46,486 nucleotides of DNA from Candidatus Zixiibacteriota bacterium (GTDB lineage: Bacteria; RBG-13-66-14; B26-G2; WVWN01). Positions within the stretch are counted from its first letter, which is position 1, and each line of letters starts with the position of its first letter. The position numbers and the translations under genes are program-made. The notes under the pieces are model-generated. The model had not been told where the DNA came from and ran no database searches. It saw only the letters and a program-made list of their open reading frames with translations. Positions 1,346 through 22,539 of this stretch are shown here, in pieces. The stretch covers positions 1 through 46,486 of the forward strand of contig JAUWLW010000023.1 of assembly GCA_030613505.1 (NCBI GenBank). Direction: 5' to 3'.

Positions 1346-2209
1346 ATGAGAAAAGGTTTACAGGTATGCGCCGTTGTTATGGCTTTGGCTGCCTCGGCCT
1401 TCGCCGAACCCGGCGACGTTATTTGGTGGGGTAAGATCGCCGCGTCGGAGAATATCGTCATCGGCGGCCTGGCGTACGACCCGCAGGACGGCAAGATATG
1501 GGCCGCGGGGCCTATTTCCGGTACCAAGCGTCAATGCAGGTATTGCAAATTCGACCCCGAGACCCGCGAAGTAGTCAGGCCCTGGGCGTCTATGGCGTCG
1601 ACGGTCGGCAGCTGCTTCGACGTAGGCTACGGCTACGAGTACGGGGGCGTCAGATGCCTCGTCGTCAACGACGACGTCGATTATTCGCCGTACACGAAAA
1701 TTATCGACCCGCGCGACGGCTCGTATAAAGGGGGCCTTCCGGATTATTACAGCCGGCCGAGCTACACCGCCGGCTGCGCCGTGGACTGGAATACGAACGA
1801 CGTGTACATCTCCAGCAATATGCGCACGCTCGACGGCGGTACCGACGACCCCCGCGTCGCTCGCTACGACGGTAGCTCGTGGAAGGTGTTCGCGACGGTA
1901 GGGGAGGCCAACGAGGGGCTGGCCGTGGGCTGGGGATACGTGTTTCTTTTAAGGATGTTCCCCTATTACGACATATACGTCTTCGACAAGGGCGGGGAAT
2001 TGAAGGATACGATTCACCTAAAGAACCTCCCCGCCAATTTCGTCGCCGGCCTGAGCCTGGGGAGGGTGGACGCCGTCGGCACGAACGAGTCGATGTACGT
2101 CGGCATCAAGTCGGGCGACCATAGCGTCGTCGAGGTCGAGGTGAAAGATTACGCCGGCGTCGCCGTAGCGCCGACGTCGTTGGGGCGCGTTAAAGCGCTC
2201 TTCCGGTAG
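1346..2209 (+). CDS. secreted propeller-like protein with SLGxVxALxR tail
   Basis: 287-residue exported protein. A signal peptide (MRKGLQVCAVVMALAASAFA, cleavage after AFA) is followed by repeated short blocks (LAYDPQDGKIWAA, VDWNTNDVYIS, LAVGWGYVFL) that look like beta-propeller blades, as in proteins that report on or bind to surfaces. No catalytic motif is visible. The last residues, VAVAPTSLGRVKALFR, are nearly the same as the end of the secreted protein at 6138-6899, although the two bodies differ. This suggests a shared tail signal or a common C-terminal module. The start is supported by GAGGGG 5 nt upstream. It has its own promoter and terminator, hence a monocistronic unit. Function unknown. 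Confidence 0.75.
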   Translation: MRKGLQVCAVVMALAASAFAEPGDVIWWGKIAASENIVIGGLAYDPQDGKIWAAGPISGTKRQCRYCKFDPETREVVRPWASMASTVGSCFDVGYGYEYGGVRCLVVNDDVDYSPYTKIIDPRDGSYKGGLPDYYSRPSYTAGCAVDWNTNDVYISSNMRTLDGGTDDPRVARYDGSSWKVFATVGEANEGLAVGWGYVFLLRMFPYYDIYVFDKGGELKDTIHLKNLPANFVAGLSLGRVDAVGTNESMYVGIKSGDHSVVEVEVKDYAGVAVAPTSLGRVKALFR

Positions 2210-2231
2210 GACTCCACGTAGTTTTATAAAT

Positions 2232-2257
2232 AAACCGGGCCGGGCGGCCGGGTTTTT
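2232..2257 (+). terminator. Rho-independent terminator
   Basis: Hairpin with outer arm AAACC (2232-2236)/GGTTT (2251-2255), one G/G mismatch and inner GGCC/GGCC stem, loop 2242-2245, followed by T residues to 2257. It lies 23 nt after the stop at 2209. The flanking A and T runs let it also serve the minus-strand permease ending at 2284. Confidence 0.75.
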
Positions 2258-2283
2258 ATCGTTTCCCGCGAGCCGATTTTCAA

Positions 2284-3573
2284 CTAACGTATTATAATTT
2301 TTCTCCCCTTACCCCAACGGTAGGCGGCTTCGATGGCGAACGCACTGCCGACCAGGCCGACGAGGACCCAGAGAGTGCGGGGCTCGAGCTTCGCCGTCTC
2401 CCATATTAGCGCACCCAGTGCCCCCAGACACAAGATGACTCCCAACGCAGGTAACCACGGCGTACTGCGCGTGTCCTTACGCAAGCGGATGTTGGCCGCG
2501 TTGACCGCGGCGAAGATGATTAGGAAGCCCGCGCTCCCGACGGTAGCGATGCGGGAAAGGTCGAAGAGGTTCGCTATAGCCAGCGTGAGAGCGGCCGAAA
2601 TCAACAGCCCCGCGAGCGGTTTTCTCCAGATTTTCTTCTCCAATATGGCCGGGAGTTCGCCGTCCTTGGCGATGATATAGCTCATGCGGGTAACGCCGTA
2701 GAGCGTGGCGTTGATGGCCGAGGCGGTAGACGCCAGCGCCGCTATCGCTATAAGGGCGTAGCCCGGTTTTCCGAGAAACGGCTCGGCCGCTACGGCCAGA
2801 GCGTAGTCCTTGGCCGCCACGATCTTGGCGACCGGCAGGTTGCCCAACGTTACGAAGGCTATGACGATGTACAGAAAGATGACGAAGCCGACGGCGGCGA
2901 AGAGAGCGCGGGGGATTGTCCGGGCTGCATCCTTAGCGTCTCCGGCGGCGTTGGCGATAAGTTCGAAACCCTCGTACGCGACGAAGATGACCATGCCGCC
3001 GGCGACTATTTGCCGGGCGCCGACCCAGGTCGCGGGCGCGAAGCCGGCGCTGTTGATGCTCCAAATGCCAGCGACGGCGAAAACCGAAAGGATGGCTATT
3101 TTAAAGGCGACGATCCACACCTCGGCGTTACCTATAACTTGGGCGCCCATGACGTTCAAAGACGTCATCAAGATTACGACGGCGCTTATAAAAACGTGTT
3201 TGAACAAGGGCTGCGTGGAGGCCGAGAAGAGGCTCGCGCCGTAGCTGCCGAAGGCGTACGCGTACAGAGAGAGGGTGACGATGTAGCTCAGCCACAGTAG
3301 TACGTTCGCGGACCCGGTGAAGTACCCCGCGCCGAAAGCACGGTCCAGGTAGGCTACCGTCCCCACGCCGTGGGGATACGCGACCGCGAGCCGCGCGTAG
3401 GAATAGGCCGTTATTAGCGCGATGACGCCGGCCACCGCGAACGCGATGGGCGTCGCTCCACCCGCCATCTGGACCGCCAGGCCCAGGACCGCGAAGATGC
3501 CGCCGCCCACCATGCCGCCGACGCCGATGGCGACGACGGGCCAAAAACCGAGGGCTTTTTTTTCAGCCGTCAA
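2284..3573 (-). CDS. APC-superfamily amino acid permease
   Basis: 429-residue integral membrane transporter, about 12 hydrophobic helices, of the amino acid-polyamine-organocation type. The first helix carries GGMVGGGIF (residues 19-27), the unwound substrate-binding motif of the family (usual form G-[IMV]-V-G-[SAG]-G-I-F). VAYEGFELIANAAGD in the middle matches the helix 6 region. Family members usually import amino acids with H+ or exchange them for related compounds; the substrate cannot be read from sequence. The start is TTG at 3573, with AAGGA close upstream (spacing about 3, rather short), and no better start lies before the first helix. It is downstream of, and in the same direction as, the DOMON lipoprotein gene, 114 nt away, with no promoter recognised in the gap. 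Confidence 0.85.
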   Translation of the reverse strand: MTAEKKALGFWPVVAIGVGGMVGGGIFAVLGLAVQMAGGATPIAFAVAGVIALITAYSYARLAVAYPHGVGTVAYLDRAFGAGYFTGSANVLLWLSYIVTLSLYAYAFGSYGASLFSASTQPLFKHVFISAVVILMTSLNVMGAQVIGNAEVWIVAFKIAILSVFAVAGIWSINSAGFAPATWVGARQIVAGGMVIFVAYEGFELIANAAGDAKDAARTIPRALFAAVGFVIFLYIVIAFVTLGNLPVAKIVAAKDYALAVAAEPFLGKPGYALIAIAALASTASAINATLYGVTRMSYIIAKDGELPAILEKKIWRKPLAGLLISAALTLAIANLFDLSRIATVGSAGFLIIFAAVNAANIRLRKDTRSTPWLPALGVILCLGALGALIWETAKLEPRTLWVLVGLVGSAFAIEAAYRWGKGRKIIIR

Positions 3574-3687
3574 AGGTCCTTCGACTAAGATAGTTTGCGT
3601 TTACTTTTTTACGTTGGATTTGAACGTTGCCGAAGCAATTGCTGTCCGGCGAACGGCCTCGCCGCCGACTTGAGGGTACGCTCTTTT

Positions 3688-4248
3688 TCAAATTTTTAAA
3701 TCCGTCTTCGTCCGCACCTGGTGTTGCGTCTTGAAGTTGTCGGCGCCGTCGGGGCCGTACGCGAAGAGTACTTTGTGCGTCTGGCCCACGACGAGCTTGC
3801 GGTCGCGCTCGTCGCCCGAGTCGAGCGGGATAGTAAAACTTATCTCCGTAGCGCCGCCCTCCTCTTTCCCCCTCTTGTTCGTGACGTTGTCTTGGCCGCC
3901 CCCGTTCACGTCGGCGTCGTGGCCGAACAAGCCGTCGCCGTAGTCGTCCCGGATGAAGACCTGGCCGTCTTTGACGTAACCTATTATCAAGTTCGCGTCC
4001 TTCATGACGACGGCGGGGTCGAAGCCGACGGCGACCCAGCCGGTTGTCGGCGCTTTCACCGTCGCGTTCAGGTTTTTCCCCTCCGGCTTCCACGTGAAGG
4101 TTATTCTATCTATAGTTATGGAGCCGCCGTTGCCCGGGCCGACGGGCGACGTTTCGTCTTCGTCGCCGTTGCAACCGCACGTTAAGGCTGCCAACGCGAG
4201 CGCGGCCGACGCCGCGGCCGTAATTACGAGTTGATTATGCACATTCAT
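3688..4248 (-). CDS. DOMON-like lipoprotein
   Basis: 186 residues. The N-terminus has a signal sequence with a lipobox-like LTCGC (Cys24 or Cys26), followed by an acidic linker. From about residue 45 to the end it resembles a DOMON domain: ITFTWKPEG, GWVAVGFDP, MKDANLIIGYV, then a late beta strand VLFAYGP. DOMON domains are beta sandwiches that bind haem or sugar and usually sit outside the cell, as in cytochrome domains of cellobiose dehydrogenase. The typical Met/His haem ligands cannot be assigned safely here; Met at MKD is a candidate. ATG 4248 has a strong Shine-Dalgarno (GAGGAGG) 7 nt upstream. A near-consensus promoter lies at 4336-4364. Role probably in extracytoplasmic ligand or electron binding. 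Confidence 0.7.
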   Translation of the reverse strand: MNVHNQLVITAAASAALALAALTCGCNGDEDETSPVGPGNGGSITIDRITFTWKPEGKNLNATVKAPTTGWVAVGFDPAVVMKDANLIIGYVKDGQVFIRDDYGDGLFGHDADVNGGGQDNVTNKRGKEEGGATEISFTIPLDSGDERDRKLVVGQTHKVLFAYGPDGADNFKTQHQVRTKTDLKI

Positions 4249-4335
4249 TTTAAACCTCCTCGGGCGCGCGAAACCTATCGACTTTTAGATACCGAGTGCC
4301 AAGTCAATTCGATCTAGAGGTTCAAATACGGCGCG

Positions 4336-4364
4336 ATTATAATTCAGTTACGATGCCATGTAAA
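4336..4364 (-). promoter_or_regulatory. sigma70-type promoter for DOMON lipoprotein
   Basis: On the minus strand: TTTACA (4364-4359), 17-bp spacer, TATAAT (4341-4336). It sits in the gap below the SDR gene and gives a leader of about 80 nt to the ATG at 4248. Confidence 0.8.
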
Positions 4365-4405
4365 GCGGAACGGCCGACGGCCCGTAGACGCGCGGCCACC
4401 AGGTA

Positions 4406-5353
4406 CTATAGCAGGACAAGGCCTTCTTTTAGCGTCGCGTACGCAAGCGTGGGGACGAGCTCCGCCTTCATCCGCGACGTATCGCCGTAGTAATTCGCCA
4501 TTCCTATCTTGATAAAGTCACATGTCAGCGGCGCCCGCGTCCCGAAGGCCGAGGCGAATAGTTCGACGGTACTTGCCGCGGCGTAGAAAGCCCACCGGGG
4601 GAGGCGGGGCGGCTGTGCATATCCCCAATGGTCCGCCGCGGCGTCCAGGAATCCTTGGAGCGTGAGCTCGTCGTCGTCGCCAAGATTGAAGACGCCCGCG
4701 ACGCCCGGTTTTTCTATCGCCGCGGCGACGGCGGCCAGGAAATCCGGGAGCGCGAGAAGGTGGACCCAAGTCGGCTCCCGCCACACGGCGAGGAGGTGCC
4801 GTTTCAAAAGCCACCTCGCCGCCTCGATCATTAGAACGCCGCGGCTGTAGATCATCCCGGGCCGAAGGGCTATCGGCGCGGTAGAGGTACGCTCGCAAGA
4901 GGCGAAGAGATATTTTTCCGCCGCCAGCCGGGTCCGCGCGTGTACCGACGCTGGGTTTCCCGCGAGTATCCCGCGCGCGGGGCGTTCGGGCGAGGATTCA
5001 CCTTCGACGTGCGGAAAGCTTACCAGGATTATTTTACCGACGCCGGCGGCCAAGGCCGCGTCCACGACGTTTTGAACGTACCGGACGTTGGTCGTCGGTA
5101 AAAATCTCTCCGGCCGAGGTTCGAAAAGGACGCCGGCCAAATGTACGACGGCGTCGACGCCCCGGAGCGGTTCGGCCAACGTCTCGGCGCGGGCGAGGTC
5201 CGCCCGGAAGGTGTGAACGTTAGGTCTTCGGGCGACGTCGGCGGGAACGGGTCTTCTATGTACGAGCAGATTTAGCTCGTGATTAGACGGGCCCATACGG
5301 CGCGCCAGAAACGAACCCAGATTGCCGGCAGCTCCCGTTATAAGGATTTTCAT
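4406..5353 (-). CDS. atypical NAD(P)-binding SDR/epimerase-like protein
   Basis: 315-residue Rossmann-fold protein of the extended SDR (NAD-dependent epimerase/dehydratase) type. The nucleotide-binding GAAGNLGS is at residues 7-14, DAVVHLAGV at about 67-75, a third beta strand KIILVSFPHVEG follows, and the C-terminal substrate domain contains the typical GVFNLGDDDELT. The catalytic YxxxK of the family is not there: the aligned position reads H138-ART-R142. It may therefore bind NAD(P) without classical SDR chemistry, as in NmrA-like or other atypical SDRs, or use other residues. ATG 5353 has no convincing Shine-Dalgarno. The gene lies in the same direction as the membrane protein gene upstream, about 95 nt away, with a palindrome between them. 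Confidence 0.75.
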   Translation of the reverse strand: MKILITGAAGNLGSFLARRMGPSNHELNLLVHRRPVPADVARRPNVHTFRADLARAETLAEPLRGVDAVVHLAGVLFEPRPERFLPTTNVRYVQNVVDAALAAGVGKIILVSFPHVEGESSPERPARGILAGNPASVHARTRLAAEKYLFASCERTSTAPIALRPGMIYSRGVLMIEAARWLLKRHLLAVWREPTWVHLLALPDFLAAVAAAIEKPGVAGVFNLGDDDELTLQGFLDAAADHWGYAQPPRLPRWAFYAAASTVELFASAFGTRAPLTCDFIKIGMANYYGDTSRMKAELVPTLAYATLKEGLVLL

Positions 5354-5425
5354 ATATTTCGGGGAACGAACGACGGAGCCATTTTAAGCCCGGAAAGTAC
5401 GCAATTTGTATTGTTGGGCACCACG

Positions 5426-5440
5426 CTGTAAGAATTACAG
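5426..5440. repeat. 15-bp palindrome CTGTAA-N3-TTACAG
   Basis: Perfect 6-bp arms (CTGTAA 5426-5431, TTACAG 5435-5440) around GAA. It lies in the gap between the membrane protein stop (5448) and the SDR start (5353), with no T run, so it looks like a dimer-binding operator and not a terminator. No cognate regulator is known. Confidence 0.4.
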
Positions 5441-5447
5441 ATGGTTA

Positions 5448-5942
5448 TTAGGCACTACAATAGATATCCTTATTTTTTACGGGTATTTTCCGCTTTTGGA
5501 GCAACGCGCGGACGGCAAAAACCGCGAATACCGCCACGACCAGCCAGGCGAAGACGTCGCCGGCGCGCGGGTAGACGGCCCATACGCCGCGAGTCGGTAG
5601 ATGGGCTACGACGACCGGGTCCTCGGCGGCGAAGTAGGGCGTCAGGTAGACGACGGCCGCCGCAACCGCGAATGCGACGTACTGGTAGACCGACATTATC
5701 ACGTCGGTTATGCCGCGCCAGGCGAAGGAGTTCGCCGCCGCCGTGGCCAGGACGGCGAGAGGGAGGCCGACCGCGACGCGTTGGCCGCGCAGCCACCGCA
5801 ACATAAAGACCGGCGCAAGCCACGCCGCGACGCCGACGACGTAGCGGCCGCCGGCGAAGAGCCAGAAGACGGCCGCAAACCCAAGCCATAACCAAGGGGT
5901 CGCCACGGAAAAGCGCGGTTTATGGGATCGAGGTATATCCAT
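5448..5942 (-). CDS. Lnt-like membrane region, no nitrilase domain
   Basis: 164-residue membrane protein with five or so hydrophobic helices. The part from residue 15 to 50 (FAAVFWLFAGGRY, AWLAPVFMLRWLRG) and the C-terminal GDVFAWLVVAV recall the N-terminal membrane half of apolipoprotein N-acyltransferase and related nitrilase-fused proteins, where such helices precede a catalytic carbon-nitrogen hydrolase domain. That domain (Glu-Lys-Cys triad) is absent here: the frame ends at 5448 and nothing downstream encodes it. It could be a truncated relic or a stand-alone helper. The resemblance is from memory. Its promoter leaves only a few nucleotides before ATG 5942, and there is no Shine-Dalgarno. 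Confidence 0.6.
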   Translation of the reverse strand: MDIPRSHKPRFSVATPWLWLGFAAVFWLFAGGRYVVGVAAWLAPVFMLRWLRGQRVAVGLPLAVLATAAANSFAWRGITDVIMSVYQYVAFAVAAAVVYLTPYFAAEDPVVVAHLPTRGVWAVYPRAGDVFAWLVVAVFAVFAVRALLQKRKIPVKNKDIYCSA

Positions 5943-5953
5943 GATTGGTAGGG

Positions 5954-5982
5954 ATTATAACAACGGCGCGCCCGGCGGTCAA
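5954..5982 (-). promoter_or_regulatory. promoter predicting a near-leaderless mRNA
   Basis: Minus strand: TTGACC (5982-5977), 17-bp spacer, TATAAT (5959-5954), matching 5/6 and 6/6. The -10 box ends only 11 nt before the ATG at 5942, so transcription should start about 3-5 nt before the start codon. Confidence 0.75.
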
Positions 5983-6091
5983 TTACGGCCACGGACGTTA
6001 CCGTATTGGTACCTCGCCGGCGGGAGTTTATAGATAAGGTTTATTACGCCGAGGCCGTGAAAAATTGTTTAACCAATTGAGTATTATAAAG

Positions 6092-6115
6092 AAAAAGCCG
6101 CCCGGAGGGGGCGGC
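6092..6115 (-). terminator. Rho-independent terminator
   Basis: Minus strand: 7-bp stem GCCGCCC (6115-6109)/GGGCGGC (6103-6097), loop of 5, then TTTTT (6096-6092). It lies 23 nt after the stop of the secreted protein gene at 6138. Confidence 0.85.
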
Positions 6116-6137
6116 CTGCTTACTCCTTAATTTACGT

Positions 6138-6899
6138 TTAGCGGTAAAGGGCCCTGACTTTTCCGAGCGAGGCCGGCGCGACGCTAACCGTAGCCGGGCA
6201 CGAGACGCGGTAGATAAAGCCGTTCGTACAGCCGATAAACAGGGCCGAGTTGTAATACGCCATGCCGTACGAGGTAGAGGGCGGCGCGAGGAACGAAGCG
6301 ACGATCGACCCTCCGCCGGCGACGGAATAACCGAAAATGCTAGGTCCGTAAGCGCCCCATATCAGCCGATTCCGGTGGTCGTACGTGATGTCGCGGTAGT
6401 CGGAGTTGGGCATGGGGAAGGATGAGAGGACGCTGCCGGTCGACAAGTTGTGGCGCCAGGTGTAGCTCGGATCGCTGTCGCTCGCGAATAATGCGGTAGT
6501 ACCGGCGCCGCCGTCGCCCGTTTGTTGCGGGGCGAGGCCGTACGGGTCGTGGTTTACACCCCAGGAACCTATCACCGACCCCGTCGTCCAATGGCAGTTG
6601 TAGACGGTGTCGTTGTTGTAGGAGCCGACCCAGACGTGGCCGGTGGTTGAGTACGCCAGGCCACGGTTGCTCGTACTGGACGGTACGGCCCACGAGCCCC
6701 GGACCGAACCGTTACCCGGGTTAAGGTTATAAACCGTGCGGGGGTGAACCAAGACGTGGAGGTACGTCCCGGAATGGGCGAGGCCTCGGATGCTGTTCGA
6801 GGGGGCTCGATAGGAGCCTAATATGTCGCCTAGCGCGGCGAGAGCCACGCCCGCGGCGCATAACGAAAGTACTAAGATACAAAACCAGCTTCTCGACAT
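6138..6899 (-). CDS. secreted propeller-like protein with SLGxVxALxR tail
   Basis: 253-residue exported protein. The signal peptide runs to about residue 22 (CAAGVALA, then ALGDILGSY). The body has blade-like repeats (IRGLAHSGTYLHVLV, NRGLAYSTTGHVWVG, YGMAYYNSALFIGC) that suggest a beta-propeller, each strand ending in an NG/TG turn, for example YNLNPGNGSVRGSW and YNCHWTTGSVIGSW. It ends VSVAPASLGKVRALYR, matching the tail of the protein at 1346-2209. ATG 6899 has AAAGGA 8 nt upstream. It has its own promoter and terminator. No enzymatic motif is visible; a surface or extracellular role is inferred from the signal peptide alone. Confidence 0.75.
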   Translation of the reverse strand: MSRSWFCILVLSLCAAGVALAALGDILGSYRAPSNSIRGLAHSGTYLHVLVHPRTVYNLNPGNGSVRGSWAVPSSTSNRGLAYSTTGHVWVGSYNNDTVYNCHWTTGSVIGSWGVNHDPYGLAPQQTGDGGAGTTALFASDSDPSYTWRHNLSTGSVLSSFPMPNSDYRDITYDHRNRLIWGAYGPSIFGYSVAGGGSIVASFLAPPSTSYGMAYYNSALFIGCTNGFIYRVSCPATVSVAPASLGKVRALYR

Positions 6900-8115: not shown

Positions 8116-8616
8116 ATGCCAGAATTCGACGACAAACAGGGCAGTGGCGTAGACTTCAGTCGTTGGTCATTCGGCTTCAACGGCCAATACCGCCACTCGC
8201 TCGACGAAAAAGGCCGGTTAAGCGTCCCTGCGAACTTCCGCCGCGACGCCGCCGGTAACGCGATCGGCCGATTCAAACTTACGGTCGGCTTCGAGCGGTG
8301 CCTTTTCCTTTTTCCCACGGAATACTGGCAAGCCGTAGTTGAGCCCCAACTACTTGAGCTACCCATTATGGAACGGGAGGCGCGGCTCGTGACGAGGATG
8401 TTGTTGAGCCGCGCGGCCGATTGCGAGCCGGACCGCCAAGGGCGCGTTATGGTCCCCGCGCCGTTGCGCGAGTACGCCGGCCTCGGCGGCGAGGGCATAA
8501 TTAACGGCATGTTTAACCGCGTCGAAATTTGGAGCGTCGACCGGTGGTTGGCGTACGAGGCTGAGGCCGTCGCGGCGTTCGAGGATATGGCCGCCCGGTA
8601 TAGGATTAAGTTCTAG
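8116..8616 (+). CDS. mraZ: MraZ, transcriptional regulator of dcw operon
   Basis: 166-residue DNA-binding protein made of two AbrB/SpoVT-like halves that form a ring-shaped multimer. The first half carries HSLDEKGRLSVPANFR and the second DRQGRVMVPAPLREYAGL, the diagnostic D-x-[KR]-GR motifs. The family is usually near 145 residues; the extra length is an N-terminal extension of about 20 residues before GFNGQYRHSLDEK. ATG 8116 has no visible Shine-Dalgarno, but no later start precedes the domain. First gene of the dcw operon, 2 nt before rsmH. It probably represses its own promoter through the GTGGT boxes at 8055-8079. Confidence 0.95.
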   Translation: MPEFDDKQGSGVDFSRWSFGFNGQYRHSLDEKGRLSVPANFRRDAAGNAIGRFKLTVGFERCLFLFPTEYWQAVVEPQLLELPIMEREARLVTRMLLSRAADCEPDRQGRVMVPAPLREYAGLGGEGIINGMFNRVEIWSVDRWLAYEAEAVAAFEDMAARYRIKF

Positions 8617-8618
8617 CT

Positions 8619-9566
8619 ATGGTTACCGTTTGGGAAGACGTCGCGTTTTCTTCGCCCGCCGTAGAGAGCCAGGGCGGTTACGCCGAGCCCCGCCACCAGG
8701 CCGTAATGGCGGCCGAGGTTGCAAAGGCGGTTATGCGGCGGTACGGCGGCGTATGCATCGACGCCACGGTAGACGGCGGCGGCCACGCCGCGAAACTTCT
8801 GGACGTTTTACCTTCGGATAATATCTACGTGGGTGTGGACGTCGACGCCGACGCGCTGGCGCGGGCACGACGGCGCCTTGCTCCCTTCGGCACGCGCGTG
8901 GTTTTACAGAACGTTTCTTTCGTGAAGCTCGCCGAAGTAGCGGCGCCGTACGCCGGCCGCGTTACCAACGTCCTGTTCGACCTCGGCCTCTCGAGCGAAC
9001 AACTCGCGGACGAGACCCGGGGTTTTTCCTTCAACGCGGCCGGCCCCCTTAACATGCGCTTCGACGGCGACCCGTCGGAGTTGACCGCGGCCGAGGTAGT
9101 GAACACTTTCGACGAGGAGGAGTTGGCGGACATAATCCACGAGTTGGGCGAAGAGCGGCGTGCGCGCGCTATCGCCCGGGCCATCGTAAACCGGCGTGCG
9201 CGGGATTTATTCGCCGACGCCGCCGATCTCGCCGAAGTGGTTACCCGGGCCGCAGGCGGCCGGCGCGGCCGCATTCACCCCGCGACGCGGACGTTCCAGG
9301 CCTTGCGTATATTCGTAAACGACGAACTGGGCGCGCTCGAGGCGGCGTTACCCGAAGCGGCAGCGATAAGTACGCCCGGCGCGCGCTTGTTCGTGATTGC
9401 GTATCACTCGCTGGAGGACCGTATTGTTAAGAAGTTCTTCCGAGCGTCGGCCGCAGCGGGCGAATTACGGCTCGTAACCCCCAAACCGCAGCGGCCTTCC
9501 GCGGCGGAGGTACGGGGAAATCCGCGGAGCCGCAGCGCGCGCTTGCGCATAGCCGAAAAGGTTTAA
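8619..9566 (+). CDS. rsmH: 16S rRNA m4C1402 methyltransferase RsmH
   Basis: 315-residue SAM-dependent methyltransferase (MraW) that methylates N4 of C1402 in 16S rRNA in the cytoplasm. The sequence shows the family start PRHQAVMAAEV, the SAM-binding motif I DATVDGGGHA, the acidic loop YVGVDVDADALARARRRL, FDLGLSSEQL, and the closing NPRSRSARLRIAEK. Length is normal. It follows mraZ after 2 nt, so it is probably translationally coupled, and has no own Shine-Dalgarno. In many bacteria it is the second dcw gene, as here. Confidence 0.95.
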   Translation: MVTVWEDVAFSSPAVESQGGYAEPRHQAVMAAEVAKAVMRRYGGVCIDATVDGGGHAAKLLDVLPSDNIYVGVDVDADALARARRRLAPFGTRVVLQNVSFVKLAEVAAPYAGRVTNVLFDLGLSSEQLADETRGFSFNAAGPLNMRFDGDPSELTAAEVVNTFDEEELADIIHELGEERRARAIARAIVNRRARDLFADAADLAEVVTRAAGGRRGRIHPATRTFQALRIFVNDELGALEAALPEAAAISTPGARLFVIAYHSLEDRIVKKFFRASAAAGELRLVTPKPQRPSAAEVRGNPRSRSARLRIAEKV

Positions 9567-9567
9567 T

Positions 9568-9900
9568 ATGGCGACGGTGCATTATCGCCCCCCGACTATC
9601 GACGTCGCGCGTCGCCCTAAACGGCGCCGGCGGTTATACGTTTGGGCCGTAGTCGTGACTTTTGGGGTTCTGCTGTTGGCGTTTTTATATTTGTGGCAGT
9701 GCGTATCGATCCTTGAGCTCAACTATGAGGTGGCGCGCCTCCAGCGCGAATTGGACGAGGCGTACCAGGAGAAGGTGACTTTGAAGGCCGACTTGTACCG
9801 GCGGCGTTCGATGGCCGAGATCGACGAGGTAGCGCACGAGAAACTCGGGTTGCGGCCACCGGCGCCCGGTCAGGTCATCATCATAGAGGACGGAAGTTGA
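9568..9900 (+). CDS. ftsL: FtsL-type divisome protein
   Basis: 110-residue bitopic membrane protein. A basic cytoplasmic segment (RRPKRRRRLYVW) precedes one membrane helix (about residues 26-46), then a periplasmic coiled coil (ILELNYEVARLQRELDEA) and the short conserved ending EVAHEKLGLRPP. This is the layout of FtsL/DivIC-like proteins, which pair with FtsB and FtsQ and activate FtsWI. The identification rests on layout and position between rsmH and ftsI, since the family is poorly conserved. Start ATG 9568 has AAAAGG 6 nt upstream. Its stop overlaps the TTG start of ftsI (TTGA). Confidence 0.85.
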   Translation: MATVHYRPPTIDVARRPKRRRRLYVWAVVVTFGVLLLAFLYLWQCVSILELNYEVARLQRELDEAYQEKVTLKADLYRRRSMAEIDEVAHEKLGLRPPAPGQVIIIEDGS

Positions 9901-12035
9901 GGTCCGCCCGCAAAATACGTTTCGCTACATTGTACTTTTTCTTCGTCGTCGTTTTCGGCGCCGTTCTTGCGCGCCTTTTGTGGATTCAAGTGTTGCACCA
10001 CGATTTCTATGCCGAGGCGGCATTTAAACAACAATACGGAAGGAGTTACCTACCGGCGGCGCGGGGCGTTATCTACGACCGCAACATGAGCCCGCTGGCG
10101 ATGAGCAGGCCGGTTTACGATATCTATTGTATACCGCGGCTCATCCAGGATGGTAAGGCCGTGGCGAGAGTGCTTGCGCCGGTGCTCGGCGCCGACGAAG
10201 CGGAGCTCGAGCGCAAATGCGCTTCGGAAGCGGAGAGTGAGTGGCTGGCCCGCGAGGTGGCCCGGGGCAAGGCGACGAAAGTGTTGGCGATGGGTTTAAC
10301 GGGTGTGTTTGCCCGCCCTTGCGAGCGGCGGATCTATCCCGAGGGTGAGCTCGCGTGCCACGTACTGGGCTACGTCGGTCCTCGCGACGGCGCTCGCGCC
10401 GGCGCCGAGAGCACGCTCGACGTTTTCCTGGAGGGTTTGCCCGGCTACTTCGATGGGGGCGCCGACGCTGCGGGACGCGCTCTCCCGGACCTGACCGATA
10501 ACTTTGTACCCCCGATGAATGGCTTGGGGTGCGTCCTGACCATCGATAAATGGTGCCAATATGTCGCCGAACGCGAGCTGAGAGCGAGTTGCGAACGATA
10601 CGGCGCCGAAGCCGGTGCCGCGGTCGCCATGGACCCCCACAGCGGAGAAATACTCGCGCTGGCTTCCTATCCCGCGTACGACCCCAACGATTACGGCGAG
10701 TACCGGCCGGCCTGTTGGCGCAACAACGCCGTTACGTCGGCCCTCGAGCCCGGGTCGATCGTGAAACCTTTTCTCGTAGCCGCGGCGTTGGAGGAGCGGG
10801 TCGTATCGACGCGCGATATTTTCGATTGTTCGAAAGCTTTACGTCTGGGGCGTTTCGAGGTAACGGACGTCAAACCCCGTGCCGAGCCGCTCACGCCGTC
10901 GCAGATAATCGAGCGCTCCAGTAATATCGGCGCAGTCCTTATTGCCCAAAGGTTGGGTGGCCGTCGTTATTACGAGTATTTGCGCAGGTTCGGCTTCGGC
11001 GAGCGGACCGGCGTAAAGCTGCCGGCCGAGAACCCGGGTATCCTCCGTTACGACGAATTCAAAAGGCCGCTCGGCCGGGCGTTCGCCAGTTTCGGTCAGG
11101 GGCTCTCGGCCACCCCCCTGCAGCTCGCTACCGCAGCTTGCGTTCTCGCCAACGGCGGCAAGTTGGTCAAGCCGATGCTCGTCTCGGCCATAGTCGACGA
11201 GAACGGTCGAACGCTCCGGCGTTTCGCACCCGAGACTCAGCGGCGGGTGATCTCCGCCGAAACGGCGGCTGCGGTAAGACAGATGATGACGCTCGTCGTC
11301 GAGCGCGGCGGCGGCAAGTTGGCCCGGCTGCCCGGGTACCGCGTAGCCGGCAAGACCGGGACGTCGGAGATCGCTTCCCCCGGCGGCCGGGGATACGTGC
11401 TCGGCGCGTATCATTCGTCTTTTTTGGGGATTTTCCCGGCCGACGACCCCCGCGTCGTGATCTTCGTTACGATAAGGAAACCGCGGGGCGAAGTCTTCGG
11501 CGGCAAGGTAGCGGCGCCGGCGTGCGCCCGGGTTGCCGCGGATATCTTGCCGGCGCTAAATGTGCTTCCCGCCGGCGGCCGCACGCTGGATTTACCGGCT
11601 CCGCCCGCCGGTAATCGCGCCGCCGTCACGTTCCGGGATGTCGCCGCGTCGACGGCGATAAAACGCCTGACGGCGGCGGGTCTCCGCGCCCGTTTCGAGG
11701 GAAGGGGAAGCCGCGTTTTGTGGAGCTCGGCAGATGGCGGGACGCCCCCGGAGGCCGGCAGCGTCGTCCTATTGAAGTTGGGCGGCGGCGCCGGCGGCAT
11801 GCCGAGCGTCGTCGGCCTTTCGGTCCGGGAGGCCATGAGGCGCTTGGGGCCTTCGGGCGTTACGGTTAAACTGCGCGGCGGCGGTGGTTGGGTAGTCGAC
11901 CAGTTGCCGGCGCCGGGCGCGAAATTGGACGCTGAATGCACGCTAATGTTAGCGGAACGCCGGTCACCGCGGCCGAGGCTTTCTCCCGCCGCGGGGAAGC
12001 CGTCGCCGGCGACCGGGGCCGAAATAGCCGGGTGA
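9897..12035 (+). CDS. ftsI: FtsI/SpoVD-type penicillin-binding protein with PASTA
   Basis: 712-residue monofunctional class B PBP, the transpeptidase that cross-links septal peptidoglycan. It has an N-terminal membrane anchor (about residues 8-30), a dimerisation domain beginning RGVIYDRNMSPLA, and a transpeptidase domain with S287-IVK290, S341-SN343 and K486-TG488. Two PASTA domains follow (about 575-625 and 633-680; the second begins MPSVVGLSVREAMRRLG), which bind peptidoglycan or lipid II fragments. PASTA tails on FtsI are known from SpoVD/PBP2x-type proteins and several deep phyla; proteobacterial FtsI lacks them. The start TTG 9897 overlaps the ftsL stop. murF follows after 4 nt; murE, often next, is missing. 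Confidence 0.93.
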   Translation: MRSARKIRFATLYFFFVVVFGAVLARLLWIQVLHHDFYAEAAFKQQYGRSYLPAARGVIYDRNMSPLAMSRPVYDIYCIPRLIQDGKAVARVLAPVLGADEAELERKCASEAESEWLAREVARGKATKVLAMGLTGVFARPCERRIYPEGELACHVLGYVGPRDGARAGAESTLDVFLEGLPGYFDGGADAAGRALPDLTDNFVPPMNGLGCVLTIDKWCQYVAERELRASCERYGAEAGAAVAMDPHSGEILALASYPAYDPNDYGEYRPACWRNNAVTSALEPGSIVKPFLVAAALEERVVSTRDIFDCSKALRLGRFEVTDVKPRAEPLTPSQIIERSSNIGAVLIAQRLGGRRYYEYLRRFGFGERTGVKLPAENPGILRYDEFKRPLGRAFASFGQGLSATPLQLATAACVLANGGKLVKPMLVSAIVDENGRTLRRFAPETQRRVISAETAAAVRQMMTLVVERGGGKLARLPGYRVAGKTGTSEIASPGGRGYVLGAYHSSFLGIFPADDPRVVIFVTIRKPRGEVFGGKVAAPACARVAADILPALNVLPAGGRTLDLPAPPAGNRAAVTFRDVAASTAIKRLTAAGLRARFEGRGSRVLWSSADGGTPPEAGSVVLLKLGGGAGGMPSVVGLSVREAMRRLGPSGVTVKLRGGGGWVVDQLPAPGAKLDAECTLMLAERRSPRPRLSPAAGKPSPATGAEIAG

Positions 12036-12039
12036 GGCC

Positions 12040-13422
12040 GTGAGCGTTAATTGGACGCTGCGTGAGGTTGTCGATTTGCTCGGTGCCGAGGTCTCGGGCG
12101 ACGGAGGCGTTCGCCTTGCGGGGGTGAGTACCGACAGTAGGTTAGTCCGCTCGGGAGACCTCTTCGTCGCCCTGCTCGGCGCCCGGCACGACGGCGCCGA
12201 TTACGTAGCGGACGCGGCCGCGAGGGGTGCCGCGGCTGCGGTAGTCGCCCGCGAAGTGCCCGAAGCGATACCCCAAGTCTTGGTCGAGGATACTCTCGAG
12301 GCACTGCGGATTTTGGCCCGCGCCCGGCGGCACGAGTTCTCGGGGCCGGTGGTAGCCGTAACCGGCTCTTGCGGGAAGACGACGACCAAAGACTTGATAG
12401 AGGCCGTTTTGGCCCGCAAGTACCGCGTACGCGTCGCCCCCGGCAATTACAACAACGAGGTGGGCGTACCGGTTTCTATACTTGCGCTTGAGGACGACGA
12501 CGAGGTGCTCGTGCTCGAGCTGGCCGTTAGCGCGCCCGGCGAGATGGCGCCGTTGGCCGACGCCGCGGCGCCGACGGTGGCCGTCATCACGAACGTCGCG
12601 CCGACGCATTTAGAATTTTTCGGCGACGTGGCTGCGGTGCGTCGCGAGAAGATGGCGCTGCTCAACTACGTCAAACCCGGCGGGACGGCGGCCTTGAACG
12701 CCGACGACCCGCTGGTGGTCTCTATGGCAGAAGAGCTCGTTAACGGCCTGAAGGTCGTTACTTTCGGAACGGCCGAGGATGCGGATGTACGGGCCGAGGA
12801 TTTGGCCGCGGAAGGTTTCCGCGGTTCGACCTTTAAGCTCGCCGGCGGGGCGCGAGTCCGGTTGCCTCTCCCCGGCCAATACAACGTAATGAACGCGCTG
12901 GCCGCGGCGGCGGTAGGTTACGTTTTGGGCGTGCCGGAAGAAGATGTCGCGGTCGGCCTGACCGCTTACGCCGGCAGAGAACTCCGCTCCAAGGTGGTTG
13001 TCAACGGCCGAGGCGTAACTTTCTTCGTGGATTGTTACAACTCGTCGCCGCAGGCGGCGAGAGCCGCCATCGGTCTCGTGGCGGCCGCGCCGGCCGACGG
13101 TCGCCGCGTCGCCGTATTGGGCGATATGCTCGAGCTGGGGGCGACGGCGGAACAGGCCCATCGAGACGTAGGGAAATTCGCCGCCGAGGCGGGGCTCGAC
13201 GTTGTCGTGGGCCTGGGCGGTGGGGGCCGTCTGATCGTGGAAGGCGCGCGCGCGGATGGGATGTCGCGCGAGGCCGCGCTCTCCTTCCAAGACCGGGACG
13301 AACTGGCCGACTTTCTGGCGGCGTGGTTGAAACCCGGCGACGTCATCTTAGTAAAGGCCAGCCGCGCCGTGCGGTTGGAAGGAGTTTTAGACAAGCTGGG
13401 CGTCGACGTCCAAGGAGGCTGA
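12040..13422 (+). CDS. murF: MurF, UDP-MurNAc-tripeptide:D-Ala-D-Ala ligase
   Basis: 460-residue cytoplasmic Mur ligase. It adds D-Ala-D-Ala to UDP-MurNAc-tripeptide with ATP. Domain 1 has GVSTDSRLVRSGDLFVAL, the P-loop is VTGSCGKTTTKDLI (about residues 107-120), then the MurF-type GNYNNEVGVP, VAPTHLEFFG, and the C-terminal VDCYNSSPQAARAAI. The GN-x-NNE-x-G-P segment favours MurF over MurE. The usual ELGM-x-x-x-GEI reads ELAVSAPGEM. The start is GTG 12040, 4 nt after ftsI. Because murE is not beside it, the tripeptide substrate must be made by a gene elsewhere. Confidence 0.93.
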   Translation: MSVNWTLREVVDLLGAEVSGDGGVRLAGVSTDSRLVRSGDLFVALLGARHDGADYVADAAARGAAAAVVAREVPEAIPQVLVEDTLEALRILARARRHEFSGPVVAVTGSCGKTTTKDLIEAVLARKYRVRVAPGNYNNEVGVPVSILALEDDDEVLVLELAVSAPGEMAPLADAAAPTVAVITNVAPTHLEFFGDVAAVRREKMALLNYVKPGGTAALNADDPLVVSMAEELVNGLKVVTFGTAEDADVRAEDLAAEGFRGSTFKLAGGARVRLPLPGQYNVMNALAAAAVGYVLGVPEEDVAVGLTAYAGRELRSKVVVNGRGVTFFVDCYNSSPQAARAAIGLVAAAPADGRRVAVLGDMLELGATAEQAHRDVGKFAAEAGLDVVVGLGGGGRLIVEGARADGMSREAALSFQDRDELADFLAAWLKPGDVILVKASRAVRLEGVLDKLGVDVQGG

Positions 13423-13425
13423 CGG

Positions 13426-14514
13426 TTGCTCTACCTGCTACTGTATCCATTACATACCGAAATTTCGTGGCTCAACCTCTTTCGCTACGTCACTTTCCGC
13501 TCGGCCTACGCCGCCGTAACGGCGTTTTTGATAGCCGTCCTTTTGGGGCCGCCGCTCATTAGGTTCCTCAAGCGAAAGATGGTCGAAGAGATAATCCGCG
13601 AGGAGGTCCCGCGGCGCCACCTTCAGAAAGCCGGGACGCCGTCGATGGGCGGCCTGCTGATATTGGCGGCCATAGTCGTGCCGACAATCTTATGGGCCGA
13701 CGTCACGAGCCGGTACGTCATCGCCATCCTCATAGTGACTATCTCCCTGGGTGCGATGGGTTTCGCCGACGACTATTTGAAACTGGTGGTCAAGAAACCG
13801 CTGGGCTTGCTCGCACGATGGAAGTTTTTCGGCCAGGCTTTACTGGCGCTGGCTATTGGCCTTTTCGTGTATTTCTTCCCGCTCGATAACGGCATGACCA
13901 CCTGGCTTACGTTCCCCTTCCTCAAGAACGTAGTCGTCAACGTCGGCGCCTTCTATATCCTTTTGGTGATGATCACGGTCGTCGGTTCGACCAACGCCGT
14001 TAACCTGACCGACGGCCTCGACGGCCTCGCCGCGGGCGCGATGCTCTTCACGGGCGCGGCCTACGCGGTGATGTGTTACGTCGTAGGGAACGTCAATTTC
14101 GCCGGATACCTCCAGGTGATGTACGTATCGGGCGGCGCCGAGTTAACGGTATATATGGCCGCCATGGTAGGTGCGCTGCTGGGCTTTTTGTGGTTCAACA
14201 GCTACCCGGCCCAGGTGTTTATGGGCGATACGGGCGCGCTCCCGCTGGGCGGCGGCATCGGCACCGTCGCGATTCTTATTAAACAAGAGTTGTTGCTCGT
14301 CATAGTGGGCGGCGCTTTCGTGATCGAGACGTTGTCGGTTATTATCCAGGTACTGTATTTCAAGGCCACAGGCGGCAGGCGCGTCTTCAAGATGTCGCCG
14401 CTGCACCACCATTACGAGCTCAAGGGTTTGGCTGAGCCTAAGATAACGATCCGTTTCTGGTTGATTTCGGCGATATGCGCCGTCATCGGCCTTTCGACGT
14501 TGAAGATAAGGTGA
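13426..14514 (+). CDS. mraY: MraY, phospho-MurNAc-pentapeptide translocase
   Basis: 362-residue membrane enzyme with about ten helices. It transfers phospho-MurNAc-pentapeptide from UDP to undecaprenyl phosphate, making lipid I. Family motifs are present: RRHLQKAGTPSMGGLL, FADDYLK (Asp pair), STNAVNLTDGLDGLAAG, FMGDTGALPLGG and the HHHYELKG near the C-terminus. Length is typical. The start is TTG 13426 with a strong AGGAGG 7 nt upstream, located in the end of murF. It overlaps murD by 4 nt (GTGA). Confidence 0.95.
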   Translation: MLYLLLYPLHTEISWLNLFRYVTFRSAYAAVTAFLIAVLLGPPLIRFLKRKMVEEIIREEVPRRHLQKAGTPSMGGLLILAAIVVPTILWADVTSRYVIAILIVTISLGAMGFADDYLKLVVKKPLGLLARWKFFGQALLALAIGLFVYFFPLDNGMTTWLTFPFLKNVVVNVGAFYILLVMITVVGSTNAVNLTDGLDGLAAGAMLFTGAAYAVMCYVVGNVNFAGYLQVMYVSGGAELTVYMAAMVGALLGFLWFNSYPAQVFMGDTGALPLGGGIGTVAILIKQELLLVIVGGAFVIETLSVIIQVLYFKATGGRRVFKMSPLHHHYELKGLAEPKITIRFWLISAICAVIGLSTLKIR

Positions 14515-15896
14515 GCACGTACGAGGAGAAACTGGAAGCCTTCCTCGGCCGCCGCGTCCTGGTGGTCGGATTGGGGCGTTCCGGCGTAGCGGCGGCCAGG
14601 GCGCTTGCGCCGGCGGCCGCTGAGGTCGTGGCCTGTGACGAAAAGCCGGCCGACGAACTGAGCAAGGAAGCCCGGGAGCTCGCCGGTGCCGGCGTGGAGC
14701 TCCGCGCGGGCGACCAAACGCCGGCGCTACTCGCGGGCGTGGACCTCCTTGTTCGTAGCCCCGGCGTTCCCTGGGAAGCGCCCCTTATAGTAGCCGCCCG
14801 CGAAAAGGGTATAGAGGTCGTAGGCGAGCTCGAGTTGGCGTACCGCCTGCTCGTGACGGAACGCGTCGTCGCCGTCACCGGGTCCAACGGGAAGTCGACG
14901 ACGACGGTTCTTTTGGGCGAGATCTTCCGGCGGGCCGGCGAAGACGTGGTCGTCGCCGGCAACATAGGCGTCGCGTTGACCGCGGTGGGGGCGGAAATCC
15001 GACCGACGACCACGGTTGTGGCCGAGGTTTCATCGTTCCAGCTTGAGGACGCCGTGACGTTCAGGCCGCGCGTAGCCGTATTGCTCAACCTCGCGCCCGA
15101 CCATTTGGACCGGCATGGCTCGCCGGCCGCGTACTATCGCACGAAGTGGCGCCTGTTCGAAAACCAGCGGCCCGAGGACTACGCGGTGTTGAACGCGGAC
15201 GAAGAATCTTCCGGTAACCGGGACGAACTTCAGGCCGCGGTGTTGTTGTTCGGGCGCGGCGCGGCGCCGGGGCCCGGCGTGTGGCTCGCCGGCGACGACG
15301 TAGCGTACGATGTCCGTGTGCAGAAGGGGACGTTGTTGCCGAATCGCGATATACGGTTGCCCGGGCCCCATAACCTATCGAACGCGATGGCGGCGGCCTG
15401 CGCGGCGTTGGCGATGGACGTATCCCCCCGGGCGATAGCGGAAGCCCTCGTCGAATTCGAAGGGCTGCCGCACCGGTTGGAGTTCGTCGGGGAAGCGGGG
15501 GGCGTACGTTACGTGAACGATTCCAAGGCCACGAACGTGGCGAGCACGCTTACGGCACTCGCTACTTTCGAGGGGCCTATAATATTGATCGCAGGGGGCA
15601 AATCGAAGGGCGGCGATTTCGGGGCATTGGCGGCTGCGGCGCGCGGGAAAGTGCGGCTGGCGGTACTTTACGGCGCCGCGCGCGACGAGCTCGCCGCCGT
15701 TTTTGAAGGTGTCGTTCCTCTCGAGCGAGTGGATACCGTGGGGGGAGCGGTGGCCAGGGCCGCGGCGTCGGCCCGGCGCGGCGACGTCGTACTTCTCTCA
15801 CCCGCTTGCACGTCGTGGGACCAGTACCGCGATTTCGAAGAACGGGGCGACGATTTCAAAAGAGCCGTGGCCGAGTTGAGCCGGGAGGCCAGTTAA
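14511..15896 (+). CDS. murD: MurD, UDP-MurNAc-L-Ala:D-Glu ligase
   Basis: 461-residue Mur ligase that adds D-Glu to UDP-MurNAc-L-Ala. The N-terminal Rossmann domain has VLVVGLGRSGVAAARAL, the ATP site VAVTGSNGKSTTTVLLG, then NLAPDHLDRHGS and the C-terminal HRLEFVGEAGGVRYVNDSKATN, the MurD signature, ending with SPACTSWDQYRDFEERG. I start it at GTG 14511, which overlaps the mraY stop as GTGA, giving the usual length; an upstream start within mraY would add 12 residues without family support. ftsW follows after 3 nt. Confidence 0.95.
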   Translation: MSTYEEKLEAFLGRRVLVVGLGRSGVAAARALAPAAAEVVACDEKPADELSKEARELAGAGVELRAGDQTPALLAGVDLLVRSPGVPWEAPLIVAAREKGIEVVGELELAYRLLVTERVVAVTGSNGKSTTTVLLGEIFRRAGEDVVVAGNIGVALTAVGAEIRPTTTVVAEVSSFQLEDAVTFRPRVAVLLNLAPDHLDRHGSPAAYYRTKWRLFENQRPEDYAVLNADEESSGNRDELQAAVLLFGRGAAPGPGVWLAGDDVAYDVRVQKGTLLPNRDIRLPGPHNLSNAMAAACAALAMDVSPRAIAEALVEFEGLPHRLEFVGEAGGVRYVNDSKATNVASTLTALATFEGPIILIAGGKSKGGDFGALAAAARGKVRLAVLYGAARDELAAVFEGVVPLERVDTVGGAVARAAASARRGDVVLLSPACTSWDQYRDFEERGDDFKRAVAELSREAS

Positions 15897-15899
15897 AGA

Positions 15900-17060
15900 A
15901 TGCCGCGTTCACTCGTCATTACGTTGATAGCCGTATCGCTTATGCTGGCGACGGCGGGCGTGCTCATGGTTTTCTCGTCGAGCGCGGCCCTGGCGTACGT
16001 GAAGTACGACGGCGATAGCATGTACTTCCTGAAACGTCACTTGATCAATTTGGCGGTGGCCTTGGCCGTGGGCGCGTTTTGCGCGTTTGCCGATTATCAT
16101 CTGTGGCGACGGCTCGCCTGGCCCGCGGTGATCGTCGCGGTTTCGCTACTGGTTTTAACGTTGGCCTTCGGCGTCGGGAGTTACGCCGCGCCGGTTCACC
16201 GTTGGCTGAAATTGGGGCGATTCTATCTCCAACCCTCGGAACTAGCGAAATTGGCGACGGTTTTCGTGTTGGCGAAGTACATCGCCCGACGCGGCCAGCT
16301 CGAAAACGCGTATGAGAAGTGGCTTCCCCTCGGCGCGGTAGTCGTGATGTTCGCGGCGGTGGCGGTGCAACCCGATTTCAGCATGGCTTTTCTCATCGCC
16401 GCTTCGGCGTTCGTGATGCTCTTTCTGGCGGGCGTCCGGTTCCGGTACATCGTCGGCGCCGGGGCGTTAGTGGTGCCGCTCTTGGCGATAATGATATCCG
16501 CGCAGAAGTACCAAATTTCGCGGCTGATATCTTACGTCGACCCGTGGCGTTACGCACGCGGCAGCGGCTACCAGGTAATACAATCTTTGATCGCGCTCGG
16601 TTCGGGCGGCCTTTTAGGCAGAGGCCTCGGCGCTAGCAACCAGAAACTATTCTACTTGCCCCAAGCCCATACCGACTTCGTGTACGCTATTTTAGGCGAG
16701 GAGTTCGGTTTCGTGGGTGCGGCGGCGGCGCTGGCGGCGTTCGCGATCCTGGTTGCGGCCGGCTTCAAGACCGCGGCGCGGGCGAGCGACGCCTTCGGCA
16801 GATACTTGGCGGCGGGGTTGACTGCCGTCGTGGGCCTTTGCGCCGCGGTGAACCTTTGCGTCGTCACCGGTTTAATACCCACAACCGGCATCCCGCTGCC
16901 GTTTATATCTTACGGCGGCACGTCGCTCGTCGCCACGTTCGCCGCGGTCGGGATATTAATAAGTATCGCCCGGCGTTCCGGCGTCGACAGCGCTTTCGGG
17001 TACGCCCGCCGCGAGATGCCGTCGGCGTCGCTGAACGGCACGTTCGTCGACTACGTTTAA
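15900..17060 (+). CDS. ftsW: FtsW, septal peptidoglycan glycosyltransferase (SEDS)
   Basis: 386-residue SEDS membrane protein with about ten helices. With FtsI it polymerises lipid II at the septum. It shows the family pattern VFSSSAALAYVKYDGDSMYF at the start, the YFLQPSELAKL-type segment (FYLQPSELAKLATVF), the loop YQVIQSLIALGSGGLLGRGLG, HTDFVYAILGEEFGFVG and the end PLPFISYGGTSLVAT. GGGAGG lies about 13 nt upstream of ATG 15900. It sits between murD and murG, the usual place. Confidence 0.95.
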   Translation: MPRSLVITLIAVSLMLATAGVLMVFSSSAALAYVKYDGDSMYFLKRHLINLAVALAVGAFCAFADYHLWRRLAWPAVIVAVSLLVLTLAFGVGSYAAPVHRWLKLGRFYLQPSELAKLATVFVLAKYIARRGQLENAYEKWLPLGAVVVMFAAVAVQPDFSMAFLIAASAFVMLFLAGVRFRYIVGAGALVVPLLAIMISAQKYQISRLISYVDPWRYARGSGYQVIQSLIALGSGGLLGRGLGASNQKLFYLPQAHTDFVYAILGEEFGFVGAAAALAAFAILVAAGFKTAARASDAFGRYLAAGLTAVVGLCAAVNLCVVTGLIPTTGIPLPFISYGGTSLVATFAAVGILISIARRSGVDSAFGYARREMPSASLNGTFVDYV

Positions 17061-17064
17061 AACG

Positions 17065-18171
17065 ATGACGTCGAACAAAGAGATACTTCGGATCGTTATC
17101 GCGGGCGGTGGGACCGGCGGCCACCTCTTCCCGGGGCTCGCCGCTGCTGACGCAATAACGACCGCGGCGCCCCGGGCCGGTATAACTTTCGTCGGTACCG
17201 GGCGGCCGGTAGAGGAGCGGGCGCTGGCGGCAAAGCCGTACGGGTATCGTGTTTTGCGGGCGCCGCGCCTCGAGCGTAGTCTGCACCCGCTCAACCTCCT
17301 GATGCCCGTTCGGTTCGCTTGCGCCGCGGCGCGGGCGCGTAAGCTGCTTCGCGAGCTTAAACCCGCGCTCGTGATAGGGACCGGCGGGTACGGCAGCGCG
17401 CCGGTGGTCGTTGCGGCGCGGCTTCGTCGGACGCCGACGGCAATACTGGAGCAGAACATAATACCGGGGCTGACCAACAGGTTATTATCCCGCGTCGCGG
17501 ACTTAGCGTGCGTAGCGTTCGAGCCGTCGCGCGATTGGCTCGCCGACCGCGTCAAGGTCGTCGTGACGGGTAACCCCGTGCGCGACGTCCGCGACGCCGA
17601 CGACGTGGAGGGGGCGCGCGCCAGGCTCGGCCTTGACGCCAGGACTTTTACCGTCTTCGTATTCGGCGGCAGCCAGGGCGCGCAGCGCCTCGTTAGCGCG
17701 ACGGCGGCCGCGTTGGACGAGCTCGTCGACCGGGATGTACAACTCGTCGTCCAGACGGGCGACGCCGCGACGCTCGACGTACCCGCGCCTTGGCGAGGGC
17801 GCCTCGTTGTGCGGCCGTTCTTCGACGAAATATACGACTGTTACCGGGCCGCCGACTTAGTGGTATGCCGCGCCGGCGGCGGCGTGGCGGAAGTCCTCGC
17901 TTTCGGCCGGCCGATGGTCCTGGTGCCTTATCCCTTCGCGGCCCACGGCCACCAACAACGCAACGCGGCGTACGTGGAACAAGAGGGCGCGGCCGTCGTC
18001 GTCGAAGACGAGGATCTGGACGGCGCCAAACTGGCGGCGCTTATCTTGGAACTTCAAAACGACGACGGACGACGGGGGGCGATGGCGCGCGCGGGCCGTG
18101 AGCTAGGCCGCCCCGACGCGGCCCAACAGGTCGCGCGCGCGGCGTTGGCCCTTATAGGGGTTGGGACGTGA
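17065..18171 (+). CDS. murG: MurG, lipid II-forming GlcNAc transferase
   Basis: 368-residue GT-B glycosyltransferase (GT28) on the inner face of the membrane. It adds GlcNAc to lipid I, making lipid II. The N-terminal loop IAGGGTGGHLFPGLA (G-loop 1), IGTGGYGSAPVV and ILEQNIIPGLTNR bind the membrane substrate. The C-terminal half holds VFGGSQGAQRL and the UDP-GlcNAc site CRAGGGVAEVLAFGRPMVLVP (quoted in part of the family form), with HQQRNA after it. It starts at ATG 17065, 4 nt after ftsW, and overlaps murC by 4 nt (GTGA). Confidence 0.95.
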   Translation: MTSNKEILRIVIAGGGTGGHLFPGLAAADAITTAAPRAGITFVGTGRPVEERALAAKPYGYRVLRAPRLERSLHPLNLLMPVRFACAAARARKLLRELKPALVIGTGGYGSAPVVVAARLRRTPTAILEQNIIPGLTNRLLSRVADLACVAFEPSRDWLADRVKVVVTGNPVRDVRDADDVEGARARLGLDARTFTVFVFGGSQGAQRLVSATAAALDELVDRDVQLVVQTGDAATLDVPAPWRGRLVVRPFFDEIYDCYRAADLVVCRAGGGVAEVLAFGRPMVLVPYPFAAHGHQQRNAAYVEQEGAAVVVEDEDLDGAKLAALILELQNDDGRRGAMARAGRELGRPDAAQQVARAALALIGVGT

Positions 18172-22526: not shown

Positions 22527-22539
22527 CGGAGGTAATAAA

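Follow-up and report, generated by a model that had tools for sequence, protein, structure and literature searches.

The 46,486-nucleotide stretch analysed here (hereafter the window; contig JAUWLW010000023.1, positions 1 to 46,486, of assembly GCA_030613505.1, deposited as Candidatus Zixiibacteriota bacterium) contains two genes whose exported products finish in nearly the same short C-terminal tail. The genome from which it comes (2.86 Mb, with an assembly 93% complete) belongs to a phylum that includes records named Candidatus Coatesbacteria. The positions and opposite strands given for both genes in the original prediction are right, and each protein stops directly after its tail. The features are as follows, those of the two genes being based on the open reading frames (ORFs), on a crude signal-peptide test and, where indicated, on AlphaFold models.

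1346 to 2209, plus strand: exported protein of 287 amino acids with the tail at its C-terminus (ORF).
1346 to 1405, plus strand: predicted Sec signal peptide MRKGLQVCAVVMALAASAFA (sequence and signal-peptide test).
2159 to 2206, plus strand: C-terminal tail VAVAPTSLGRVKALFR, with a TAG stop next.
6138 to 6899, minus strand: exported beta-propeller protein of 253 amino acids with the tail at its C-terminus (ORF and AlphaFold).
6837 to 6899, minus strand: predicted Sec signal peptide MSRSWFCILVLSLCAAGVALA (sequence and signal-peptide test).
6201 to 6824, minus strand: folded propeller body, residues 26-233 (AlphaFold).
6141 to 6188, minus strand: C-terminal tail VSVAPASLGKVRALYR, with a TAA stop next; predicted detached helix of low confidence, residues 245-252 (ORF and AlphaFold).

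The two proteins had been proposed to have different bodies, and this is the case. Pairwise BLASTP aligns about the last 40 residues, which is essentially the tail, and neither BLASTP nor phmmer shows homology between the bodies. In a phmmer search among all the fetched tail proteins (E <= 1e-5), the 6138-6899 protein matched 25 others and the 1346-2209 protein matched five, each list lacking the other window protein, and the two therefore belong to different families. The 1346-2209 protein has homologues in a different genus of the phylum (L086 and L084), and these end in the tail as well. Neither window protein has a match in Pfam or NCBIfam. The AlphaFold model of the 6138-6899 protein is a propeller (mean predicted local distance difference test, pLDDT, of 89.6, exceeding 90 for the greater part of residues 26-233) whose nearest solved folds are the propellers of the glutaminyl cyclase type. 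It is followed by a disordered linker and by the detached helix 245-252, for which pLDDT is below 50. An FN3-like tail protein from Marinimicrobia, unrelated to the propeller, is likewise modelled with a linker and a detached tail helix, although at this low confidence the helix is no more than suggested, and hydrophobic moments are ambiguous between helix and strand.

The tail was expected to occur dozens of times per genome if it were a sorting signal. In fact, the pattern G-x-[VI]-[KR]-A-L-[FY]-x-stop has 105 matches (48 + 57) in the genome of the window and 73-107 in three genus mates, and the reversed control pattern has none in the former. In the fetched DNA of this genome, read in all six frames, the core motif precedes a stop by one residue in 115 cases and is found nowhere else. 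These two results rule out a chance origin and bear out the claim that the tail sits at the exact end of exported proteins. The form found in the genus is [AG]VxP[AT]S[LV]G[RK][VI]KAL[FY][RK] and occupies the last 10-16 residues. These residues hardly vary among 101 ORFs: position -14 is V in 89, -12 is P in 98, -10 is S in 99, -9 is L/V/F, -8 is G in 101, -7 is R/K, -6 is V/I, -5 is K/R, -4 is A in 98, -3 is L in 93, -2 is F/Y in 101 and -1 is R/K in 92. By the crude test, a signal peptide is predicted for 82 of the 99 complete tail ORFs compared to 105 of the 377 other long ORFs of the same regions, a contrast that is conservative because this background is itself enriched for exported proteins.

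Several features of these gene ends show at which level the tail is maintained. In the last 12 codons of the tail ORFs, codon positions 1, 2 and 3 carry 1.35, 1.61 and 0.60 bits, respectively, and downstream of the stops only 0.09 bits per base are left. As conservation is concentrated at codon positions 1 and 2 and ends at the stop, selection acts on the C-terminus of the protein and not on a DNA repeat. We have found no supporting point for a repeat at the DNA level, or an element resembling a terminator, that overlaps the gene ends. Such an element is further contradicted by the 94 distinct 27-mers among 99 tail-gene ends and by the empty control pattern, and its probability is negligible. 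The tail might also be explained simply as the conserved terminus of a single family of proteins, or as the product of a recent expansion of paralogues, and the grouping of the 101 ORFs lends this some support, as 71 of them fall in one broad propeller cluster (BLAST threshold). However, there are 15 further clusters, so that at least 16 kinds of body carry the tail in this genome, and they include unrelated domains named by Pfam (NHL and other propellers, cupredoxin/plastocyanin, InhA-like MAM and YCF48-like). Together with the missing match between the window proteins and the position of the tail outside the folded propeller, this refutes a single domain family as the explanation for the whole and makes such an origin very improbable. 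The tail genes include tandem arrays. Anchoring as lipoproteins was also dismissed, since a lipobox is present in 7 of 242 tail proteins by a loose test, compared to 1 of 92 proteins with a Type A domain of the type IX secretion system (T9SS).

The tail resembles several known C-terminal signals, but it lacks the defining features of the CTERM families with a transmembrane helix and of the T9SS C-terminal domains (CTDs). Like PEP-CTERM/exosortase, GlyGly-CTERM/rhombosortase, MYXO-CTERM/myxosortase and LPXTG/sortase substrates, it is a short C-terminal homology shared by many unrelated exported proteins. Those signals combine a signature motif with a transmembrane helix and a basic end, whereas the tail has no PEP, GG, Cys or LPXTG and, as was anticipated, no hydrophobic helix, the sequence logo of the last 16-22 residues being free of any long hydrophobic stretch. 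With the beta-signal of outer-membrane proteins it has in common a short C-terminal motif, a glycine and a near-terminal aromatic residue, but its bodies are soluble (propeller, cupredoxin, FN3-like) instead of barrels, the hydrophobic spacing is different and the tail is predicted to be helical. The closest likeness is to the Type A CTD (TIGR04183/PF18962), which is also found at the C-terminus of diverse Sec-exported proteins, dozens per genome, in the same genomes and on related bodies. Type A is, however, a beta-sandwich of 70-80 residues and the tail, at 10-16 residues, has no independent fold; neither model matches the window proteins. It is in the form of a folded beta-sandwich that Type A cargo is recognised, and this has a near-invariant Lys not far from its C-terminus (PMC10994853); the near-invariant K/R at -5 of the tail is only an analogy to that residue. 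The CTD classes differ in their shuttles (PMC12618676), and Type B (TIGR04131) and Type C are alternative C-terminal signals of this kind (PMC12618676, PMC10202324), but they have several motifs within at least about 100 residues, and the tail is one short linear motif. We have found no description of the tail in Pfam or NCBIfam, and the tail peptide strings tried occur in no paper of the open-access PMC library that was searched. There is a real chance that it represents a C-terminal sorting tag of a new class.

The tail is not restricted to the genus of the window. The other genera of the phylum, represented together with it by 14 genomes, have 0-12 matches per genome to the genus pattern, and on inspection they contain a related form, for example QPTSLGEIKALFR and SSSVGEIKALFH. 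A further form, [ST]WGxIKA[LM][FY][RK] (the W-form), occurs 1 to 37 times per genome in Zixibacteria, Latescibacteria, Marinimicrobia, Calditrichota, Eisenbacteria and Bacteroidota. When 84,980 species were scanned with one restricted version of the tail, 68 stretches were returned. Where a genuine tail ORF was present, its source was almost always one of these phyla or a relative of them, and its form mostly [ST]WGxIKA[LM]FK; the restricted pattern misses Arg-ended tails and gives a lower bound of the host range. The number of tails was 37 in Meg22_46_Bin_130, where the tails are likewise on diverse signal-peptide proteins, 11 in 'Fibrobacter sp. IMS_BF', nine in 'Gemmatimonas sp. SW.020' and seven in an Eisenbacterium, and Zixibacteria, Marinimicrobia and Bacteroidota usually have one per genome. 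Exactly one strict W-form match was present in 63 of 296 sampled Bacteroidota genomes (control, 0), and the 16 Bacteroidota tail proteins examined all belong to one orthologous FN3-like family in which the tail is the best-conserved part. A single-copy secreted FN3-like protein of 132-155 amino acids with the invariant end TWGSIKAxF recurs in Bacteroidota and Marinimicrobia (L290-L308, L104-L166). In Zixibacteria, another single protein bears the same tail, and at L140:2099-6810 and similar loci the gene order is kept as Rex, tail protein, STAS, anti-sigma kinase and PP2C phosphatase, identities that we presume by eye. One metagenome-assembled genome, 'Candidatus Zixiibacteriota bacterium A-C077' (WVWN01; L136, L145, L150, L162), shares matches with a genus mate of the window (G004), and its public name is probably wrong.

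The distribution of the tail follows that of SprA, the translocon of the T9SS (TIGR04189). SprA is present in the genome of the window (218.5 bits, over the cut-off), it is matched in all 14 genomes of the phylum (12 over the cut-off), and of the 42 other genomes with the tail, 40 have a match that exceeds the cut-off. The two apparent exceptions are RS_11_27, whose SprA matches are weak and short, and UWMA-0216, a 'Desulfobacterales' genome with no SprA whose tail contig (DTYH01000246.1, L135) also encodes T9SS-type CTDs and is probably mis-binned. Among Bacteroidota, the strict W-form was found in 63 of 227 genomes with SprA and in none of 69 without it (Fisher p 6e-9, a value that ignores phylogeny and treats as independent events that are not). 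Furthermore, the genomes with the tail also have canonical Type A domains (50 matches at E <= 0.1 in that of the window, and 76, 18, 3, 34 and 43 in five others), which indicates an additional class and not a replacement. The two endings are exchanged on related bodies: in genome G037, a beta-helix protein with a Type A domain (L224_9014) is related to others with the tail (L284/L225; E 1.7e-27), and adjacent genes in L220 encode related bodies with one ending each (E 1.4e-10). Between phyla, the same is true of Omp28-like bodies (L276 and L161; E 1.5e-19) and of an NHL body (L165) that has the other ending and is related to tail proteins of the window's own genome. PorV (PF19572) was found in seven of eight tail genomes tested. 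Two MotA/ExbB and two ExbD genes follow the SprA gene in the genome of the window (L236:2872-11262; G000:C76), possibly encoding a motor unlike the GldLM of Bacteroidota.

The original prediction regarded the tail as a sorting or anchoring signal; the size of the family, its exact position and the unrelated bodies fit this proposal, and sorting itself is what we infer from that pattern. Of the two outcomes named as refuting it, homology of the two proteins over their full length and confinement of the tail to them, neither was observed. At about even chances, we take the tail to be a short linear sorting tag at the C-terminus, with the T9SS as its most likely reader, through SprA and a PorV/PorP-like shuttle. 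According to this, Sec and the signal peptide would carry the proteins to the periplasm, where they would fold while the last 10-16 residues, and the flexible linker before them, stay exposed; an outer-membrane receptor, most likely that of the T9SS, would read the free C-terminus and route the protein to the cell surface or the medium, the tail standing in for the 70-80 residue Type A domain. Several observations weigh against this assignment. The association with SprA is confounded by phylogeny, given the single orthologous family behind all the Bacteroidota proteins examined, and most Bacteroidota with SprA lack the strict W-form. PorV was not detected in the genome of the window at E <= 1e-3, in an assembly that is 93% complete. 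What is recognised in Type A cargo, according to published work, is a folded beta-sandwich (PMC10994853), and the tail has no part of that fold. When the neighbours of tail genes were clustered in three sets of loci, no recurrent machinery gene, protease or receptor appeared, and in Bacteroidota these neighbours are varied housekeeping genes, as partly identified by eye. A linked partner, which had been proposed as support for sorting, is thus reduced to the co-occurrence with SprA, which is only suggestive, no protease or receptor being linked to the genes.

A tag with its own receptor outside the T9SS, a dedicated protein of the outer membrane or periplasm to which the cargo docks and by which it is retained or displayed instead of being secreted through SprA, is a possible but less probable explanation. 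Outside Coatesbacteria, most genomes combine numerous Type A cargos with exactly one protein that bears the tail, and this single-protein state in most phyla favours a ligand-receptor pair that later became a general code in a few lineages. The single proteins of Zixibacteria and Bacteroidota are unrelated and share the tail nevertheless, and no fold is common to the tail and the Type A domains. However, this alternative has to accommodate the lack of a linked receptor gene, the swapping of bodies with Type A domains, which suggests a similar destination, and the absence of the strict W-form from all 69 Bacteroidota without SprA. In a wider form, we regard it as tenable, at somewhat under even chances, that the tail is an undescribed class of sorting signal, a linear C-terminal tag of about 10 residues with its own receptor, spread across the Bacteroidota superphylum, ancestrally a single dedicated ligand and, in Coatesbacteria and other lineages, independently expanded into a general code for tens to about 100 proteins. 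The C-terminus could instead be bound by a periplasmic protease or chaperone as a tag for quality control or degradation. PDZ proteases and tail-specific proteases read free hydrophobic C-terminal peptides, and the tail is short and, as modelled, exposed. Conservation over many phyla, about 100 abundant-looking cargo genes and tandem arrays fit poorly with such a role, and Arg/Lys ends are atypical of degrons, which makes it improbable.

Between the two tail genes of the window there is a gene for a DOMON-domain protein (3688-4248, minus strand) with a lipoprotein-like N-terminus and no tail. Beyond them, positions 8116-23682 contain a division and cell-wall gene cluster from mraZ to ftsZ, whose gene names, except that of MraZ, we take from inspection by eye.

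Several surface-sorting machines came to light after a C-terminal tag had first been defined bioinformatically, as with PEP-CTERM, GlyGly-CTERM, MYXO-CTERM and the T9SS CTD. The tail described in this work is shorter than any of these, has no membrane helix or domain, reaches about 100 proteins in one genome and extends over many phyla of one superphylum. If it is linked to the T9SS, this system would be able to read a minimal linear signal, contrary to the current picture of a folded domain; if it is not, these bacteria would possess a second general sorting pathway, so far undescribed. Either way, a fate in the envelope or at the cell surface becomes likely for many proteins that are now unannotated, and this could be tested with a reporter construct.

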